Below are positions 8,627-62,378 of a stretch of DNA of 64,000 bases, piece by piece. Positions within the stretch are counted from its first letter, which is position 1. Each line of letters starts with the position of its first letter. Origin of the DNA: Planctomycetota bacterium (GTDB lineage Bacteria > Planctomycetota > Planctomycetia > Gemmatales > Gemmataceae); assembly GCA_021809185.1 (NCBI GenBank), contig JAKBAI010000003.1, positions 1 to 64,000 on the forward strand. The letters are read 5' to 3'. The notes below the pieces were generated by a model that was not told the DNA's origin, made no database searches, and saw only the letters and a list, made by a program, of their open reading frames with translations. The translations under genes and the position numbers were made by a program.

Positions 8627-8981
8627 TAATCCTTTGCCAATCGATCACCTCATCTAATAATTCTTAGGTTGATCCGAGATCTCTGTGAATAAACTCAAGA
8701 ATATCTAGTTTGAGATAATCCAGAGCGAATTCTTTAGATTAGAAAATCAAAAATAATTAGTATTGGGAGGTCTCAACGATGCGGATGAGCAGACCCTCCT
8801 CTTGTATTTCGCTAATGATTTGTCTGGTTATAAAATATCAACGTCCACGAGGATCTTAGACTTCACCAATCGGAGACCAGCCTCAGAGACCAGCCTCTGT
8901 AACCGTGGAATTAATCTGGCCTAAAAGAGGTAATATTTCCTAAGCTGAAACAGGTTTCTAAGTGGTATTGTTTTCTTATCT
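8627..8981. other. Convergent intergenic region with hairpins and a possible dispersed element
   Basis: This spacer lies between two genes that point toward each other. GGTCT at 8769-8773 pairs with AGACC at 8791-8795, a possible weak bidirectional terminator. From about 8870 the motif AGACCAGCCTC occurs twice, and the second copy forms the stem CAGAG/CTCTG. About 40 bases later comes CTAAAAGAGGTAATATTTCC. A similar pair of motifs in the same order lies near 23205-23265, so both may be copies of one short element. Confidence 0.35.
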
Positions 8982-10524: not shown

Positions 10525-11460
10525 ATGAGTCTCTCTAGACATAGGAATTTGCGTAAGCGCAAAGGATTTACACTCATTGAATTGTTAGTAGTTATCGCCA
10601 TTATCGCGATCTTGATTGGTTTGCTATTACCCGCTGTACAAAAGGTAAGAGAAGCAGCGGCACGAACACAGAGCCAAAACAATCTCAAACAAATGACTTT
10701 AGCGCTGTGGAGCTGCAACGATGCGATCAGCAGAGTACCACCTAGCCAAGGAATTTTTCCAATAACCAACACGAATACCTTTAATTGGGGTTCGGCACCC
10801 GCAACACAAGGTTCTCTCTTTTATTTTATTCTGCCCTATATGGATCAACAAAATATTTACAATACCAGTACCATTGGTGCCTCTGGGGGACCAGCAGATT
10901 CTTGGGGGATTCAATCACAAAATGGTACCGTGAAGTCGTTTACAGCACCAGCCGATCCGAATTCTGGGAATATGAACGATCCTACGACTGGCCGACCGAT
11001 GATTTCCTATGCTTCAAATGCAGCAGTCTTCGGTCCGAACTATAATTTCAATGGTAGCTGGAATCAACCTTCCAAAGGGGCGATGCAGACCATCATGCAG
11101 GATGGAACCGCCAATACCATCGCTATTTTCGAGCATATGTCTCAGTGCGGAACAACCAATAATCCCTATTCGGATGCTTTTGAATCGAATCCGAATGGTT
11201 ACTATTGTGCACAAATCTACAATGCCTACTCGATCCAACCTTTTAATGGTGCATCAAACAATTTACAAGTTCCATTACCGCAACCCAAAACGAATTATTT
11301 GAATTGTAATCAGGCAACGGTCCATGCTTTATCCTCCGGAGGGATTATCGTCTCAATGGGGGATGGATCTGTTCGGAACGTTGCAAACGGAATTTCTCAA
11401 TATAGTTGGGCCGTTTCGGTCGTCCCTAATGATAATCTGGTTGTGGGTCAGGATTGGTAG
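10525..11460 (+). CDS. DUF1559 prepilin-like protein (tandem copy 1)
   Basis: The 311-residue protein has a type IV prepilin-like leader: basic residues, then G14[18 protein letters not shown], with cleavage expected after G14. A DUF1559 body follows with [18 protein letters not shown] and the C-terminal H-X9-DG signature ([18 protein letters not shown]). Such proteins are hugely expanded in planctomycetes and are probably pseudopilin-like surface or secretion components; their exact role is unknown. The copy at 12871 is nearly identical over its second half even at nucleotide level, which shows a recent duplication. It is followed by a terminator and then a lipoprotein gene. Confidence 0.93.
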
Positions 11461-11565: not shown

Positions 11566-11722
11566 ATTGATTTAAAGGATTTATCTTTTAAACGATATGT
11601 TGTTCAACTGGGATAGGGATAAAAGTATTTCTTTAATTCAATTTGAGATCGGGTAGTTGATTTTTTGTTTGATTGGTAATAGATGGTTTTTAATCTTTAA
11701 TCATTATTTTGAGGAGTCTCTC

Positions 11723-12313
11723 ATGAAACGAAGTATAACAGGTATATTAAGTCGATTGCTAGTACTGGGCTTGGTGATTATTGGGACATCGTGCGGTTCG
11801 TCATCGGGTACCGATGTGGGGAATGTGCGCGGGAAGATAAGTTACAAGGGACAATTATTGGATGGGGGGACAATCACCTTCCATTCGGTGGATGAAAAAG
11901 GCCCAGTATATCCTGGCAAGATAGAAGCGGATGGGACATATGCGATGTTGGGTGTTAGACGAGGGAAGTACAAAGTAACGGTGGAAACGGGGAGCAGTGG
12001 TGCTGGGGGAGGAGGTGGAAGTGGAGTATCCGATTACATGAATATGATGAAGCAGAAGGGGGCATTTACGGGTGGAGGAGGGAATACCGTGGCATCGACA
12101 AAAGAGGATCCAGCGACCGTAGCGAAGGAGCGAATGGCGAAGATGGCGAAGGGTGGGGAAGCGGATAAATATTTAAGTGCAATGAAGAAGGGGAGTGATA
12201 GTAATGGTACGAAGCCGGTGCCAGGGAAGTATAAGTCAAAAGCAACGAGCGATAAGGAGATCACCGTAAAATCGGGAGATATGAAAGATGTCAATATCGA
12301 TTTAACCGATTGA
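11723..12313 (+). CDS. Lipoprotein with transthyretin-like fold and glycine-rich linker
   Basis: I start this gene at the ATG at 11723 because GAGGAG lies at 11711-11716 and the product then opens MKRSITG, a normal lipoprotein signal with lipobox GTSC. An upstream in-frame start would add 22 implausible residues. The 196-residue product has a carboxypeptidase-regulatory/transthyretin-like beta domain (VRGKISYKGQLLDGGTITF to YKVTVET). A Gly-rich segment and a Lys-rich tail ending in a second beta motif (KEITVKSGDMKDVNIDL) follow. Such lipoproteins regularly follow DUF1559 genes in planctomycetes, which suggests joint function at the envelope. The start of this gene is duplicated as a relic at 14151. 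Confidence 0.88.
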   Translation: MKRSITGILSRLLVLGLVIIGTSCGSSSGTDVGNVRGKISYKGQLLDGGTITFHSVDEKGPVYPGKIEADGTYAMLGVRRGKYKVTVETGSSGAGGGGGSGVSDYMNMMKQKGAFTGGGGNTVASTKEDPATVAKERMAKMAKGGEADKYLSAMKKGSDSNGTKPVPGKYKSKATSDKEITVKSGDMKDVNIDLTD

Positions 12314-12870: not shown

Positions 12871-13827
12871 ATGAGTCTCTCTAAAGAATTCAATTTGCGT
12901 AGTCGCAAAGGATTCACCCTCATTGAATTATTAGTTGTTATCGCCATTATCGCCATTTTGATTGGATTACTATTGCCCGCTGTACAAAAAGTAAGAGAAG
13001 CAGCGGCACGAACACAGAGTCAAAACAATCTCAAGCAAATGACTTTAGCTCTGTGGAGTTGTAACGATGCCCTAGGGAAAGTTCCTCCTAGTCAAGGTAT
13101 ATTTCCATATACAAGTACATCCCCTACTTTGTCAAACAACGGTAGTTGGGTTTATAATTCGGCACCCGCAGCCCAGGGTTCGCTCTTTTATTTTATTCTG
13201 CCCTACATGGATCAACAAAATATTTACAATACTAGTACCATTGGTGCTTCTGGAGGACCGGGCGATTCTTGGGGGATTCAAACCGCAAACGGGACGGTGA
13301 AATCATTTACAGCGCCTGCCGATCCGAATTCTGGGAATATGAACGATCCTACGACTGGCCGACCGATGATTTCCTATGCTTCAAATGCAGCGGTCTTCGG
13401 TCCAAACTATAATTTAAATAGCGGTTGGAATCAACCTTCCTTAGGGGCCATGCAGACCATCATGCAGGATGGAACCGCCAATACCATCGCAATTTTCGAG
13501 CACATGTCTCAGTGTGGAACAACCAATAATCCCTATTCGGATGCTTTTGAATCGAATCCGAATGGTTATTATTGTGCACAAATCTACAATACTTACTCGA
13601 TCCAACCTATTAGTGGTGTATCAAACAATTTACAGGTTCCATTACCGCAACCCAAAACGAATTATTTGAATTGTAATCAGGCAACGGTCCATGCTTTATC
13701 CTCCGGAGGGATTATCGTCTCAATGGGGGATGGATCTGTTCGGAACGTTGCAAACGGAATTTCTCAATATAGTTGGGCCGTTTCGGTCGTTCCTAATGAT
13801 AATCTGGTTGTGGGTCAGGACTGGTAG
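12871..13827 (+). CDS. DUF1559 prepilin-like protein (tandem copy 2)
   Basis: The 318-residue protein is a close paralog of the gene at 10525. The leader, the body and the last 170 residues match almost residue for residue, with the H-X9-DG motif intact. Divergence concentrates at about residues 70-95, where copy 2 has a 7-residue longer variable loop. This pattern suggests gene conversion or selection in one exposed loop. TTGGAG lies about 14 bases before the ATG. The pair forms a duplicated module with the lipoprotein at 11723 and its relic at 14151. Confidence 0.93.
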
Positions 13828-18117: not shown

Positions 18118-18732
18118 ATGGCCGATCGGATAGTTTTGGCAATAACAGGTGCGAGTGGGTCACTCTATGCTTTACGATTATTGGAGGTTTTGCTGCTCGA
18201 GAAATTACCCGTTCATCTGGTAATTAGTCCCGCAGCGGTAGAGGTATTAGCGCAGGAAACGGGGCGAATAATCGATTTGAATCGATTTTCTGCAACTGAT
18301 TTGCTTGGCCATACTGTTCCAAAAGAGAATTTATCGGAGCTAGAATATCATCATTTTCGCAATTTTCAGACAGGGATTGCCAGTGGATCATTTCCTACTC
18401 GCGGGATGGTGATTTGCCCATGTAGTATGGGAACAATAGCAGCGATTGCGCATGGGATGAGTGAAAATCTAATTCATCGAGCAGCGGATGTACATCTTAA
18501 AGAGCGCCGGAAATTAATTGTTGTTCCGCGTGAGACGCCGCTTAGTGTAATCGCCTTAGAAAATCTAACGGCTTTGTCCCGTGCGGGGGTCGTGGTTTTA
18601 CCCGCTATGCCCGGATTTTATCACCGACCACAAACGGTTGCGGATATGGTCGATTTTGTCGTGGCAAGAATTTTGGATCAGCTCGGCGTTCCGCATCAGT
18701 TAAGTTCGCGCTGGGGAATGCAATCATCATGA
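18118..18732 (+). CDS. ubiX: Flavin prenyltransferase UbiX/Pad1 family
   Basis: The 204-residue flavoprotein shows the family motifs: GASGSLYALRLLE at the N-terminus (FMN binding), CPCSMGTIAAIAHGMSENLIHRAADV in the centre (positions about 100-125), and KLIVVPRETPLS. UbiX attaches a dimethylallyl group to FMN to make the prenyl-FMN cofactor of UbiD-type decarboxylases in quinone synthesis. No ubiD is in the window. The stop overlaps the start of the glycerate kinase gene by ATGA, so the two are translationally coupled. A clear Shine-Dalgarno sequence is lacking. Confidence 0.93.
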   Translation: MADRIVLAITGASGSLYALRLLEVLLLEKLPVHLVISPAAVEVLAQETGRIIDLNRFSATDLLGHTVPKENLSELEYHHFRNFQTGIASGSFPTRGMVICPCSMGTIAAIAHGMSENLIHRAADVHLKERRKLIVVPRETPLSVIALENLTALSRAGVVVLPAMPGFYHRPQTVADMVDFVVARILDQLGVPHQLSSRWGMQSS

Positions 18733-20171
18733 CGAACATTATTCCTACAAATTCTACTTTGACCAATTCTACTGGACAAAATAAAACGAATGGCGATTCG
18801 GAGCTCCATGACCATGTCTTACAAATCTGGCAAAGTGCTCTGGATGCGGTCTCTCCTAAAGTATTATTGAAAAATTGGTTTGAATCTTCAAGCGGTGCCG
18901 ATTGGCTTAGACCGGGACAAAAAATAGTGGTTACTGGTGCGGGCAAGGCGAGCGCAGCGATGGCTGCGGCCTTGGAGGAGTTATTCGTCGATATTCCTAT
19001 CGAGCTTTCAGGTCTAGTGAATGTGCCTGATGATTGTGTGCAACCGTTACGTTGGATTCAGCTTCATGGTGCCCGCGCGGCAGGGAGTAATTTCCCAACG
19101 GAGCGAGGGGTCGTTGGTGCCCGGCAAATGATGGAGTTATTTCAGAACGCAGAACCAGATTCTCTTGGAATCTGTTTGTTATCCGGTGGTGGATCTGCTC
19201 TTCTTCCTCTACCTGCTCCAGGTTTGGTATTGGAAGATAAATTAGCTCTAACTCATCGCTTACATCGGTCTGGTGCCACCATTCAGGAAATGAATACAGT
19301 AAGAAAGCATCTTTCTGGGATAAAGGGGGGGCAGTTAGGCAGCGCTTTTCGAGGCGCTCACCTTGAGTGTTTAATTATTTCTGATGTGATTGGCGACCCG
19401 CTCGAAGTTATTGCCTCAGGACCAACTTCCGCGGATCCTTCTACATTTTCTGAGGCGATAGCGATTCTTCAGCGGTATTCTTTGTGGTCGGATCTATCAA
19501 AAAACGTTCGAAATCACTTGCTCCAAGGGGAACGAGGGGCAATCCCAGAAACTTGCAAAGTCGCCGATAAAAGGATTCGGAATACGATTTTAGGGAATAA
19601 TGCTTGTGCTCTCCGTGCCGCAGAAAAAAGAGCCATCGAGCTTGGCTATTCGGTTTGCAATTTGGGATCTTGGCTTCAGGGAGATACTATCTCGTTGGCC
19701 CGAACGATTGCCGATTTGGTCCAGAGTATTTGCCAAGATCACAAACCCCTAGCCGCTCCTGTGTGTTTGCTCTCTGGTGGGGAGACAACCGTTTCCTTAT
19801 CCCCGAATCATGGCAAAGGGGGGCGGAATCAAGAATTTGTGTTGGCATTGTGGCATTTTCTTCAAAACTATTTACCCAGTAACTGCCCCAATAACCTCAT
19901 AGACACAAAAGCGGGGAATCATCTGAAATCGCTAGCACTTTTCAGTGCAGGAACGGATGGGGAGGATGGTCCGACCGATGCCGCAGGGGCCGTAGTTACT
20001 CCCTCGATCGCTCAGCGGCAAAAGACTTTAGGCGAGAATCTAAGCGAATATCTCTTTGCGCATAATGCCTATCCATTCTTCGAGCGAATTGGCGGGTTAG
20101 TAAAAACAGGCTGGACCGGGACGAATGTAATGGATGTGAGGTTTGTACTTATTGCTGCATCGGAGAAGTAA
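18729..20171 (+). CDS. Glycerate 2-kinase, GckA/MOFRL type
   Basis: The 480-residue protein belongs to the DUF4147/MOFRL glycerate kinase family. Visible motifs are GAGKASAAMAAALEE, LLSGGGSALLPLPAPGL, NTVRKHLSGIKGGQL, SDVIGDPLEVIASGPTSAD and, in the MOFRL part, GGRNQEFVLAL and SAGTDGEDGPTDAAGA. It phosphorylates glycerate to 2-phosphoglycerate in the cytoplasm. The ATG overlaps the ubiX stop by four bases. The pairing with ubiX is not an obvious pathway link. The first 25 residues are a low-complexity Asn/Thr stretch (TNIIPTNSTLTNSTGQNKTN) absent from most relatives. Confidence 0.92.
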   Translation: MTNIIPTNSTLTNSTGQNKTNGDSELHDHVLQIWQSALDAVSPKVLLKNWFESSSGADWLRPGQKIVVTGAGKASAAMAAALEELFVDIPIELSGLVNVPDDCVQPLRWIQLHGARAAGSNFPTERGVVGARQMMELFQNAEPDSLGICLLSGGGSALLPLPAPGLVLEDKLALTHRLHRSGATIQEMNTVRKHLSGIKGGQLGSAFRGAHLECLIISDVIGDPLEVIASGPTSADPSTFSEAIAILQRYSLWSDLSKNVRNHLLQGERGAIPETCKVADKRIRNTILGNNACALRAAEKRAIELGYSVCNLGSWLQGDTISLARTIADLVQSICQDHKPLAAPVCLLSGGETTVSLSPNHGKGGRNQEFVLALWHFLQNYLPSNCPNNLIDTKAGNHLKSLALFSAGTDGEDGPTDAAGAVVTPSIAQRQKTLGENLSEYLFAHNAYPFFERIGGLVKTGWTGTNVMDVRFVLIAASEK

Positions 20172-20182
20172 GAATCGGTTAA

Positions 20183-20298
20183 TTTTACATAGGCGGTGTT
20201 GTAAAAATGTAAAAAATACTTAGGTTCGTCTTTGGGTATTGGAAATTCGATTTAATATTTTTAGTCATAAATAAATATTGTATAACTACTTGTGACTA
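20183..20298 (+). promoter_or_regulatory. Inverted repeats upstream of the sigma-54 promoter (possible activator sites)
   Basis: TTTTACAT at 20183-20190 pairs with ATGTAAAA at 20207-20214 across 16 bases, and TAGTCA at 20262-20267 pairs with TGACTA at 20293-20298. They lie about 25 to 140 bases upstream of the sigma-54 promoter, the normal range for enhancer-binding-protein sites. The assignment is by position and symmetry only. The first dyad could instead be a leftover of the 3' end of the glycerate kinase transcript, although no T run follows it. Confidence 0.35.
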
Positions 20299-20321
20299 TT
20301 TTTTACCAAAGTGATTTTTGA

Positions 20322-20338
20322 TTGGCACGGTTGTTGCT
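20322..20338 (+). promoter_or_regulatory. Sigma-54 (RpoN) promoter, -24/-12 type
   Basis: The sequence TTGGCACGGTTGTTGCT matches the RpoN consensus TTGGCACG-N4-TTGCW at every conserved position. The GG and GC elements are 12 bases apart as required. Transcription would start near 20349. Downstream there is no protein gene before the terminator at 20772, so the expected product is a short RNA. RpoN promoters need an AAA+ activator; one without a sensor domain is encoded at 61302-62378. Confidence 0.8.
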
Positions 20339-20348
20339 CTATACATAT

Positions 20349-20775
20349 CCATCGGAACTTGAAGAATCGATTTTCAAGGGCCGGAACAGAGAAGTAAAAG
20401 TTTGAAGCATAAGTTCAAAGGATATTCATAAGATCCCTTTGAATTGAGAAAAGAAGGCAAAGTCATTTGAGCGATTTGGACTGGAACCCGGATCGCTCTA
20501 AATGACACCCAAAAAAAGGATAAGTTTTCTGATATGAAAATTTGTCTAATGAAAGCTGAAAATTGGAATAATTTTCACTTACCCCCCTAAGACTAAAAAG
20601 TTGTAAAAGCTGATTTTAATCGATCGGCTCATGTGATCCCCCTAATTAACCGGGAAGGTTCCCCTAAACCCCTTTCCGTTACCATCCTGCAAAGGGTGGA
20701 TATATCCCCCCACTCGAAGTCCCTTTCAGTGGAATCCTCCAAAAACCACACCTTTCCCCAGGTGTGGTTTTTATT
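20349..20775 (+). ncRNA. Candidate structured RNA driven by sigma-54
   Basis: Between a consensus sigma-54 promoter and a strong terminator lie about 425 bases without a convincing gene but with many stems. TTCAAAGG/CCTTTGAA spans 20414-20443. GTCATTTGAGCGAT pairs with ATCGCTC and AAATGAC, one bulge, over 20462-20506. CTG and AAAGGG at 20687-20696 pair with CCCTTT and CAG at 20721-20729, and CCACT/AGTGG is an alternative. None of the signature sequences of tmRNA, RNase P RNA or SRP RNA was found. An 18-codon frame at 20534-20590 has a poor ribosome site. No known RNA family is recognised, so this is a prediction. Confidence 0.55.
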
Positions 20776-20777
20776 TT
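20741..20777 (+). terminator. Strong intrinsic terminator of the candidate RNA
   Basis: A perfect 13-pair stem (AAAAACCACACCT against AGGTGTGGTTTTT) closes a 6-base TTCCCC loop, and further T residues follow. It is the most stable terminator in the window. It lies 570 bases beyond the glycerate kinase stop and 350 bases before the next gene, so it fits neither gene well but fits an RNA starting near 20349. Confidence 0.92.
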
Positions 20778-21127: not shown

Positions 21128-22858
21128 ATGGAAGAGGCTATGCACAAAATAAATAGATTACCGATTTACAGAATCCTCAGCGCAGATTCTATTCAAACGA
21201 TAAGCTGGTCCCGATCTTTGGGAATATGGCTCTTGGCGGGAATGGTTTTTTGTCTTGGTTGTCAAAGTTGGCCGTCATTACACAGCGATTCGTCGAATCG
21301 AAAAAATCGTCTAACCAATACTTATGGCAAAGATGCCAACAATTTAAATAATCCATCTTCAGCGAAGGGATGGAACCAGCAGTTAGGGAATCAACCAATA
21401 ATCGGAAACAATAACAATACGACCAATTCAGGAGCCGATGGGACTTCACCGCTAGATTCCAATTCACCGAACGGTGGATCGCTAAACGGTGGATCGCTTA
21501 ACGGTAGCTCACAAGACAATAATTCACAAAGTAATAATTCACAAAGTAATAATTCACAAAGTAATAATTCACAAAACAATAATTCACCGAGTTCCAACAA
21601 TAGCAATAATCCTTCCTCTAATCCTAGAAAAATTAAGCCTGAGGAATTACAAAAGATATTCCCGAAACTTCCAAGTACGGATGAAAATTCCCCCATTCCG
21701 CCAAGTCCAACCACAAATACTGGATCGAATACAAAAACTTCTAGTTCAGGATCGAATACTGATTTGTCAACAGCATTGTCAAAGGAACGCAATTCAGCAC
21801 TAACACCGAAATCGTTGCAATCATCCGAAACGCTAGTAGCGCTTGGAAAATCTTCCTCAGTAACCTCAGGCCAAGGGGAAAATACCACTGCTAAAAATTC
21901 CACCGCTAAAAATACAAATCGGAACGAATCGAAAAAGGATAGCGATTGGGAAATGAATCTCACTTCCATAAAAATTCCCCCTTTCCCTTCTATCCCAGAG
22001 GATAATAAGCAAAATCAATTGGTATCAAAATTACCAGAACTGGCCCGGCCACAGCGCATTCATGTAGTGAACGAATCGCTTTCTAAAACAAAGGATCTCT
22101 CCGCGGACTTGCAAGGTCAACCAAAATTTCGGGAAGGTTCTGGATCGAATCTGTATAGTGCCGATTCCTTGCGACGAATCTATTCCTTAGGGTTAAAAGC
22201 GTATGAAAAGATAAATACATTCGAGGCTCGACTGATTCGCCAGGAAGCGATTAAGAATAAATTGCAACCTTTGGAGATCATTCATTACCATTTCCGCAAA
22301 AGTCCTTTTAGTGTGCATATGAAATGGACAGGTAAAGAAGCAACGGGTAGGGAAGTTTTGTATGTGGAAGGGGAGAATGACAATAAAATCGAAATATTGC
22401 TAGCTCGATCCGATCCTAAAGCAATTTTTATGCGCCATATTTCATTATCTCCGGATAGTTCGCTCGTGCGGTCGCAAAGTCGGCATGATATACGCGAAGC
22501 AGGGATGTGGGCATCGCTCTATCGTCTGGCACAACTCATCCAAATTAAAGAGCGCGATCCTGCCAACACACGGGTGATATACCGTGGACTGGAAAAGAGA
22601 AAAGAATATCCGCAACCGATGGAGTGTGTGCAAGAAAATATCCCGTCCGGAATAGAAACAGATTTACCTCGAGGCGGAAAACGCCTAACTTATTATGCAA
22701 CAGAACTGAATACCCCCGCTTTCGGCTTACCTGTTCTAGTTATTACATTTGATGAACGGAACGCGCTTGTTGAATATTACTGTTTTGACCGACTCAATAC
22801 GTTGACTCCGTTTGATAAACATGATTTTGATGTCAATCGACTAAAAAATGCCAAATAA
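21128..22858 (+). CDS. DUF1571 lipoprotein with Asn/Ser-rich repeat linker
   Basis: The 576-residue protein has a lipoprotein signal with a long n-region and lipobox CLGC at about 42-45. Residues 60-310 are a low-complexity linker rich in Asn, Ser and Gly. It includes four near-identical copies of the unit NNSQS encoded by 15-base DNA repeats at about 21520-21585. The C-terminal 230 residues match DUF1571: YSLGLKAYEKINTFEARLIRQE, IHYHFRKSPFSVHMKW, LPRGGKRLTYYATE and VEYYCFDRLN. The domain is typical of planctomycetes and resembles outer-membrane lipoprotein-sorting folds; its ligand is unknown. The start is uncertain: ATG 21128 lacks a ribosome site and ATG 21140 has one placed too near. Confidence 0.85.
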   Translation: MEEAMHKINRLPIYRILSADSIQTISWSRSLGIWLLAGMVFCLGCQSWPSLHSDSSNRKNRLTNTYGKDANNLNNPSSAKGWNQQLGNQPIIGNNNNTTNSGADGTSPLDSNSPNGGSLNGGSLNGSSQDNNSQSNNSQSNNSQSNNSQNNNSPSSNNSNNPSSNPRKIKPEELQKIFPKLPSTDENSPIPPSPTTNTGSNTKTSSSGSNTDLSTALSKERNSALTPKSLQSSETLVALGKSSSVTSGQGENTTAKNSTAKNTNRNESKKDSDWEMNLTSIKIPPFPSIPEDNKQNQLVSKLPELARPQRIHVVNESLSKTKDLSADLQGQPKFREGSGSNLYSADSLRRIYSLGLKAYEKINTFEARLIRQEAIKNKLQPLEIIHYHFRKSPFSVHMKWTGKEATGREVLYVEGENDNKIEILLARSDPKAIFMRHISLSPDSSLVRSQSRHDIREAGMWASLYRLAQLIQIKERDPANTRVIYRGLEKRKEYPQPMECVQENIPSGIETDLPRGGKRLTYYATELNTPAFGLPVLVITFDERNALVEYYCFDRLNTLTPFDKHDFDVNRLKNAK

Positions 22859-27245: not shown

Positions 27246-27838
27246 TTTGATTCTTGCTTCGATTGCTATTCCATTTCTGAATCGTGGGTGCTCAAAATAA
27301 ATTTTTTGCTTAATTAATGCCGATAGGAAATTAGTCTAGTCCTCCAAAAAAACTCTTGAAGTCAGAACCAGTTGTGGAAAGATCATCAGAGGTTTTACAA
27401 GTCGAATCCTTTTTCTGAATGAAGAATTTCAAGTCTTTCGTGAATGAGTTACCCCCCGATTTATGGTGATATGATAACTTTCAACTCCATGATAATTTAT
27501 TTCTTAATTAATCTACTTTGATAAACTAATCTTTATAATTCAAAATAAAATTGTTTAATAATGGGCTTTGCTCACTTAATTTGAATGATATACCAATTTG
27601 ATTGTTATATCATTCAAATATAAATCAGCTAACTAATCTAAAAATTACTTTTTGTGCTTGAAAAAAATATTGATTTTCATTATATATCATTAATTAAATC
27701 TCACTAATTGAAGGTCATGAATTCAACCACTCCAGGATTCTGCTAAATTGTTAGTTACCAAATTTTAAATGGATTTAATTGTTCAATGTTGTTTATTAAT
27801 CGTTTAATTATTGTTTAATAATTATAAGGAGGTTGAAA
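27246..27838. other. AT-rich leader of the DUF1559 cluster
   Basis: No gene was found. The 3' part holds the element GGATTTAATTGTT (27771-27783), related to elements at the same place before the genes at 29978 and 31788. AAGGAGG at 27826-27832 is a near-perfect ribosome site for the ATG at 27839. Confidence 0.5.
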
Positions 27839-61301: not shown

Positions 61302-62378
61302 TCAAGCAACTTCCCCTTTTTCGGTCGAACGAGGAGGCTCTGCCTCACGCTGGTAACTTTCCATCTTTTTGTGCAATGTATTTCGATTAATGCCAAGCTT
61401 ATCCGCTGCTTTGACCTGGACTTCATCGCAGATCATCATTACTTGTTTGATTAAAGCCCGTTCTAAGCCGCCGACCAGATAGTCATAAAGTTTGATGCCA
61501 TCAGGCAATGGGGAGCGAATTCCCAAGCGAACCAAGTGCTGGATGGTGCTATCAACATCGTCGCCATTGTTCCTAGCAGAGCGGAGAGAATAACGCGGTC
61601 GGCCAAAGCGGAGTAGATCGGGGGCGATCTGTTTCCCTTGAGTGAGAACGATAATTCTCTCGATCGAGTTTTCCAATTCACGAACATTCCCAGGCCAATC
61701 ATAATTGAGTAAAGCTTGGTCGAATAGTTCCGATATTTCTGGAGCTTCGCGATGATTCATCTCGCAATAACGCTTGAGGAAATACCGAGCTAGCACCGGG
61801 ATATCGTCTCGCCGTTCACGTAAGGGGGGCAGTGGGATCGGCACGACATTTAGACGGTAATAAAGGTCATCACGGAATCGTCCCGCTTCTATTTCTTCTT
61901 CTAATGCTTGATTGGTTGCGGCAATGACTCGAACATCTACCCGGATGGTGCGGGTATCGCCAACTCGTTCAAATTCCCGTTCTTGCAGAACGCGCAATAG
62001 TTTCACTTGTAACTTGGGAGACATGCTGGAAATCTCATCCAGAAAGATGGTGCCTCCCAACGCAGCTTCGAATCGACCTGCTTTGTTATCAACCGCTCCA
62101 GTAAAAGCCCCTTTCACATGACCGAATAGTTCGCTTTCCAGCAAATTTTCGTGCAAGGCACCACAGTTGACTCGAATATATGGGCCGTCCGATCTTCGGC
62201 TTAATTTATGAATCGCCCGCGCGATCACCTCTTTACCCGTTCCTGTTTCCCCAATTAATAATACAGAGGCATTGGTTGGAGCCGCCAGTTTGGTTAGCCG
62301 ATATACCTCCTGCATTGCTGGACTAGTTCCAACAATGTCTGGTAGGGGAGGAGCTTCAGCAAAATCATTTCTTGCCAT
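61302..62378 (-). CDS. Sigma-54-dependent transcription activator without sensor domain (PspF-like)
   Basis: The 358-residue protein is a bare AAA+ enhancer-binding protein. Walker A GETGTGK is at 43-49, the sigma-54-contacting GAFTGA loop at 90-95, Walker B GTIFLDE at 109-115, and an arginine-finger region follows. A C-terminal Fis-type helix-turn-helix (about 310-345) reads QVKAADKLGINRNTLHKKM. There is no receiver, GAF or PAS domain, so activity must be set by a partner protein or by expression level, as in PspF. It remodels RpoN-RNA polymerase at -24/-12 promoters, one of which lies at 20322. Confidence 0.95.
   Translation of the reverse strand: MARNDFAEAPPLPDIVGTSPAMQEVYRLTKLAAPTNASVLLIGETGTGKEVIARAIHKLSRRSDGPYIRVNCGALHENLLESELFGHVKGAFTGAVDNKAGRFEAALGGTIFLDEISSMSPKLQVKLLRVLQEREFERVGDTRTIRVDVRVIAATNQALEEEIEAGRFRDDLYYRLNVVPIPLPPLRERRDDIPVLARYFLKRYCEMNHREAPEISELFDQALLNYDWPGNVRELENSIERIIVLTQGKQIAPDLLRFGRPRYSLRSARNNGDDVDSTIQHLVRLGIRSPLPDGIKLYDYLVGGLERALIKQVMMICDEVQVKAADKLGINRNTLHKKMESYQREAEPPRSTEKGEVA

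Follow-up and report, generated by a model that had tools for sequence, protein, structure and literature searches.

Two described RNAs come closest to the locus analysed here. In Pseudomonas, CrcZ is a decoy RNA of about 407 nt that depends on sigma-54 and CbrB and titrates Hfq(/Crc) via A-rich motifs (PMC8395346), and in Caulobacter the non-coding RNA CrfA is described, in the portion of the report cited here, as sequestering the conserved small RNAs SisA-D by base-pairing and as redirecting gene expression (PMC12559287). GlmY/GlmZ of the Enterobacteria is, as the cited excerpts present it, a small RNA that depends on sigma-54 and serves as a decoy (PMC6075780, PMC7073468). For the partner small RNA described below, an analogue is Yfr1 of the cyanobacteria, which appears in the cited passages as a short small RNA conserved across its lineage (PMC6974561).

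Our locus lies in a stretch of 64,000 nt (here called the window, G000:C234), part of a Gemmataceae genome of 5.47 Mb in 407 contigs. We think it likely that the locus encodes a decoy RNA under sigma-54 control, a sponge for an ultraconserved small RNA. In its predicted mode of action it comes nearest to CrcZ and CrfA, without being a member of either. The features in common with CrcZ, all of them predicted in our case, are an RpoN-driven, intergenic, non-coding RNA of about 400 nt and an action by titration (PMC8395346). However, the partner of CrcZ is the protein Hfq(/Crc), whereas here it would be a small RNA bound by base-pairing. Hfq (PF17209) was not found in the genome holding the window or in 20 relatives, with five control genomes positive, and membership in CrcZ/CrcY/CrcX was rejected on these grounds. 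With CrfA the locus would share the character of a dedicated base-pairing sponge of conserved small RNAs, but the cited portion of that work presents CrfA as Hfq-assisted and does not describe it as sigma-54-driven, and its sequences and lineage are different (PMC12559287). GlmY is unlike our RNA in being a decoy for the protein RapZ and no antisense sponge, and the window has no Rfam match. Yfr1 differs from the partner small RNA in sequence and lineage, and we know of no sigma-54 sponge partner for it.

The sigma-54 promoter and its genomic setting

The features of the locus are the following.

18729-20171, plus strand: glycerate kinase-type gene (DUF4147 and MOFRL; PF13660 E=2.5e-71, PF05161 E=1.4e-32)
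20183-20206, plus strand: activator-like inverted repeat TTTTACA-N10-TGTAAAA, exact in the window, a putative enhancer-binding-protein site
20323-20338, plus strand: sigma-54 -24/-12 promoter TGGCACGGTTGTTGCT, from a genome pattern search and conserved downstream of glycerate kinase
20349-20775, plus strand: predicted non-coding sponge RNA of about 425 nt, from its fold, the lack of a conserved ORF and homologous RNAs
20358-20378, plus strand: 5' hairpin preceding the small-RNA-binding site, from the minimum-energy fold
20378-20394, plus strand: small-RNA-binding core GGGCCGGAACAGAGAAG (predicted pairing), perfectly complementary over 17 nt to the small RNA of this genome
20401-20419, plus strand: hairpin directly 3' of the core, TTTGAA-loop-TTCAAA; most homologues have a hairpin there
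20412-20445, plus strand: stem of the minimum-energy fold, window-specific
20462-20506, plus strand: strong stem of the minimum-energy fold, window-specific
20741-20772, plus strand: intrinsic terminator with a 13-pair stem, then ATTTTTTATA (ATTTTTT); homologous RNAs end likewise
21128-22858, plus strand: DUF1571 lipoprotein-like gene (PF07608 E=7.4e-26), a separate transcription unit downstream

A preliminary description of this DNA had proposed a -24/-12 promoter here, and the proposal was borne out. The sequence TGGCACGGTTGTTGCT, of the form TGGCACGN4TTGCT, has the -24 GG and the -12 GC at consensus spacing and agrees with the consensus at 11/11 scored positions; it is the sole match to the exact pattern TGGCACGN4TTGCW in the 5.47 Mb genome, the reversed control giving 0. 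RpoN itself is encoded in the genome (PF04552 at G000:C247:38683-39159, E=1.1e-58, profile search). Two inverted repeats had also been placed upstream. The one at 20183-20206 stands: it is exact in the window, and about 30 of the 43 homologous loci have a TGTAA half-site matching it, placed at about -88 to -125 relative to the -24 box. The other, near 20254-20280, was not seen in homologues.

Elsewhere in the window, a sigma-54 enhancer-binding protein (PF00158 E=7.7e-73, with a Fis-type HTH) is encoded at 61302-62378 on the minus strand, and no receiver domain was detected in it. We also observed two nearly identical pilin-like proteins with a prepilin N-terminus (10525-11460 and 12871-13827), a small lipoprotein-like gene between them (11657-12313) and more pilin-like members at 27833, 29978 and 31788.

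The glycerate kinase gene lies outside the RNA and is the landmark common to relatives, whose orthologues have the same downstream sigma-54 site. When planctomycete genomes were searched for homologs, the same promoter and core were found downstream of glycerate kinase, a sigma-54 site (at least 9/11) lying 110-165 nt beyond the gene in 16 of 38 loci. The actual distances span 114-160 nt, with 154 in the window. The count is 16 sites in 2,128 positions within the 110-165 nt range, as compared with 11 in 49,244 positions elsewhere, and each of these 16 promoters is then followed by a 17-22 nt core, GGGGCYGGAACAGA(GA)AGAGGC. Among homologues the core lies about 15-75 nt from the predicted RNA start and is conserved across 43 homologous loci.

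Outside promoter and core, DNA similarity across genera is undetectable. Searching relatives, phages and plasmids with the whole region by blastn returned nothing, and blastn within the family (E <= 0.1) returned weak matches only, of which those in G018 and G108 were located some 1 kb beyond the glycerate kinase gene and had a TGGCAC promoter of their own. The parts that recur in many genera are the promoter, the activator-like site, the 5' part of the RNA and the terminator; together with the lack of an Rfam match, this upholds the earlier suggestion of an undescribed sigma-54-driven regulatory RNA. The genes downstream vary among Gemmatales and are mostly convergent or distant, which indicates that the RNA stands alone and, given its terminator, that in this order it is not simply an mRNA leader. 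The association of the RNA with the neighbouring DUF1571 gene is not conserved, relatives having different and mostly convergent downstream neighbours, and no relatives of this gene were found in the genome contigs searched. In G081 two sigma-54 RNAs stand in tandem, each with promoter and core (L230:1415-2000).

Structure of the predicted RNA

The RNA start at 20349 was placed by promoter spacing. From there to 20775 the fold reaches -132.6 kcal/mol, against -94.7 +/- 5.3 for dinucleotide shuffles (z = -7.1), and the strong stems already pointed out at about 20412-20445 and 20462-20506 are both in the minimum-energy fold. The intrinsic terminator that had been reported was recovered as well, with its 13-pair stem at 20741-20772 and ATTTTTTATA, when 15-26 kb was scanned.

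Several homologues have, by eye, a hairpin of different sequence equivalent to that at 20358-20378. The hairpin at 20401-20419 competes with the longer 20412-20445 stem of the minimum-energy fold; in most homologues the arms of the post-core hairpin differ and stay complementary (CTCGGG/CCCGAG, CTTGGG/CCCAAG, TCGCACGCGG/CCGCGTGCGA), as tested by script, the MAFFT alignment of core and hairpin being too gappy for formal pair counting. The 3' part of the RNA is conserved neither in sequence nor in length, and the short versions L019 and L021 stop shortly beyond the core and a single hairpin. Conservation is lacking for most of the window's 3' stems, which are therefore unlikely to be the functional heart of the RNA.

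It had been stated that no gene lies within the RNA, and our analysis agrees: the longest plus-strand ORFs within 20349-20740 have 12, 12, 18 and 36 codons, none is conserved, and homologous RNAs vary in length and by indels. A small protein encoded in the RNA was therefore rejected. None of the Rfam 15 families, among them Qrr, GlmY/GlmZ and CsrB/RsmZ, matched the window at the gathering score; sub-threshold matches were far below gathering scores, the best falling on the terminator, and none was credible at permissive thresholds, in line with the earlier view that the RNA matches no familiar family.

The linkers of the window RNA contain C runs (CCCCCC, CCCCC) within 20581-20712, as do several long homologues. 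A role of these linkers as anti-Shine-Dalgarno seeds was rejected, because short versions are without them. A CsrA/Rsm-type GGA sponge, considered for the many GGA motifs, was set aside since the conserved core reaches far beyond GGA and equals the complement of the small RNA.

The unlinked small RNA and the predicted pairing

Of 398 genomes of the class Planctomycetia, 167 contain the core pattern, and the reversed control matched 1 genome. In a scan of the named collection, matches were to Planctomycetota records throughout, bar a few labelled only 'bacterium'. The retrieved copies fall into two contexts only, the antisense of a small RNA (157, and 10 more with a slightly different tail) and the sigma-54 RNA (33). 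The conserved core of the sigma-54 RNA is thus, as read from the genomes, the complement of an ultraconserved, unlinked, predicted small RNA.

The gene of this small RNA is about 55-70 nt long, with a free 5' end and a terminator, and is nearly invariant across the class. Its layout consists of a TTGACA-type promoter, 5'-GGCCUCUUCUCUGUUCCGGCCCC, a G+C-rich hairpin and a T run; about 39 of 145 loci have TTGACA at -42 to -49, and the span that begins with CCTCT and closes with the T run measures 49-66 nt. In folds, the 5' 18-19 nt are largely unpaired and the remainder is the terminator stem, and it is the 21-nt 5' region that is almost unchanged across the class. The copy of the window's own genome is at G000:C265 (core 8887-8907, minus strand; L228:3888-3908), and the gene was also found in Paludisphaera soli JC670 and Aquisphaera insulae JC669. 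Rfam gave 0 matches at gathering for the small RNA loci and no credible sub-threshold match. Outside the class, the search for the small RNA returned nothing but three stray matches, and inside it the strict core pattern is missing in family f4.

As to its surroundings, the small RNA adjoins an inositol-monophosphatase-like gene in many non-Gemmatales loci (a cluster in 54 loci, named by eye), and elsewhere its context varies. A lone small-RNA-like 5' core, GCCTCTTTTTTGTTCCGGCCCC, is present without a terminator at G061:C443:4490-4511 (L339), which suggests a chance or decayed copy.

The pairing predicted between the core of the sigma-54 RNA and the small RNA is well supported at the level of sequence. 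Positions 20378-20394 (GGGCCGGAACAGAGAAG) can pair without interruption, over 17 nt, with the small RNA of this genome, with a computed duplex energy of -36.2 kcal/mol. Among the 43 homologous RNAs the best-scoring site is the core, with a mean z = -5.7 that is descriptive, since this set was selected partly by the core motif and its main-site z-scores are not independent evidence. At its two ends, GGGGCYGG and GARGAGGC, the site is largely retained, and its middle varies (AACAGA, TTGA, CAGA, GAC), giving bulges or internal loops; kept ends with a variable middle are what would be expected if pairing with a fixed partner were selected.

In some genera site and small RNA differ together. Where the small RNA has U for C after CCUCUU (genera g14, g26 and g31), the site has A for G, so that all three variant genera changed together, the other genera being tabulated with G at the site (the G018 row of this table needs realignment by eye). 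The probability of this by chance is 1 in 1,771, a figure that assumes free association among 23 genera and ignores phylogeny, and the co-varying lineages are few, namely three. Cognate duplex energies agree with the co-variation in g26 and g31 but not in g14, where the duplex with the genus's own, shortened small RNA is weaker than with the standard one (-34.8 versus -40.4); there the energy test does not favour co-variation.

A second pairing site in Gemmatales RNAs was also considered and rejected, as such sites are mostly not above shuffles. In G030 (Gemmataceae) hairpin and site are exactly duplicated in tandem, the second site having z = -6.7.

Multi-site versions and the sponge reading

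The sigma-54 and core pattern was also found in families f6, f11, f12, f17, f19 and f21, with the proviso that some of the listed matches look spurious by sequence (e.g. G386, G382, G247, G294) and that the reversed control also matches a handful of genomes. Several loci of these families, and L112, have two or more sites per RNA, and in other orders such sites often stand in tandem. The second site has z = -4.4 in L298, -4.2 in L301, -7.9 in L302 and -4.8 in L112, and is not significant by z in L299 and L300; these multi-site RNAs end in terminator-like hairpins.

The promoter, the conserved RNA gene, the unlinked complementarity and the multiplication of sites elsewhere are supported by what was observed. 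On the sponge reading, sigma-54 RNA polymerase would transcribe a stand-alone non-coding RNA with the help of an enhancer-binding protein, whose probable site is the TTTTACA/TGTAAAA repeat. The transcript would expose, about 30 nt from its 5' end, a stretch that complements the free 5' part of the sigma-70-type small RNA (5'-GGCCUCUUCUCUGUUCCGGCCCC-terminator-3'). With the sigma-54 signal on, it would bind and titrate an abundant or constitutive small RNA, and this titration would relieve, or change, the action of the small RNA on mRNAs. We infer that both RNAs are transcribed and that the small RNA is sequestered, rather than the sponge destroyed; the direction of control, the activating signal and the mRNA targets are presumed in the same way.

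It is possible, although unlikely, that the roles are the reverse, with the sigma-54 RNA as effector (its hairpins and C-rich linkers binding, for instance, a protein or mRNAs) and the constitutive small RNA acting against it or triggering its decay. Most of the window's 425 nt are outside the pairing site and highly structured, and several of the RNAs have GGA-containing hairpin loops. Moreover, most Gemmatales versions, the window included, have a single significant site; for a sponge acting by stoichiometry this is a modest number, unless the RNA is highly expressed. However, the structured 3' part is the one that is unconserved, L019 and L021 dispensing with it after the core and one hairpin, and what was multiplied in other orders is the pairing site itself.

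Less probable again is the idea that the sigma-54 RNA is in essence a regulated 5' leader of a PSCyt2/PSD1 operon, with the small RNA controlling read-through or translation and the Gemmatales form being derived and detached. A PSCyt2/PSD1 (DUF1549/DUF1553) gene does follow 456-914 nt downstream, in the same orientation, in 8/8 non-Gemmatales loci with a match, and in L295 and L296 the terminator has a poor T-run. Nevertheless, terminators are clear in L298, L301 and L112, as also in L304, the sites and the start of the gene are far apart, and in Gemmatales the next gene is usually convergent. Between terminator and PSCyt2 gene in L295-L302 and L112 we noticed, by eye, a recurring palindrome-like 17-nt motif, TGTTGCAAAATnnnACA, located some 250-400 nt downstream of the sigma-54 site and possibly an operator.

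A chance promoter match beside either a structured region unrelated to it or the terminator-bearing 3' UTR of glycerate kinase, without any functional RNA, would fit the undetectable DNA similarity outside promoter and core, but is strongly disfavoured by the conservation of position, promoter, half-site and core, and by the co-variation, in many genera.

We give about even chances to an extension of the sponge reading to the whole class: in a class-wide, Hfq-independent circuit, the near-invariant small RNA would be a global regulator and the sigma-54 sponge its dedicated off-switch, responding to a signal. Most Gemmatales sponges would have a single site, and those of other orders at least two bulged ones. 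The sponge reading can be put to specific tests, and the strains named above carry the small RNA gene.

In the open-licence literature we found no base-pairing small RNA described for planctomycetes, nor a sigma-54 sponge circuit of this kind. If true, the circuit, made of a small RNA with a 5' region nearly unchanged over the class and of a sigma-54-controlled antisense partner conserved in several families, would provide the first known global riboregulator of the class. It would also provide a handle on the sigma-54 physiology of the class, and an example of a sponge system that works without Hfq.
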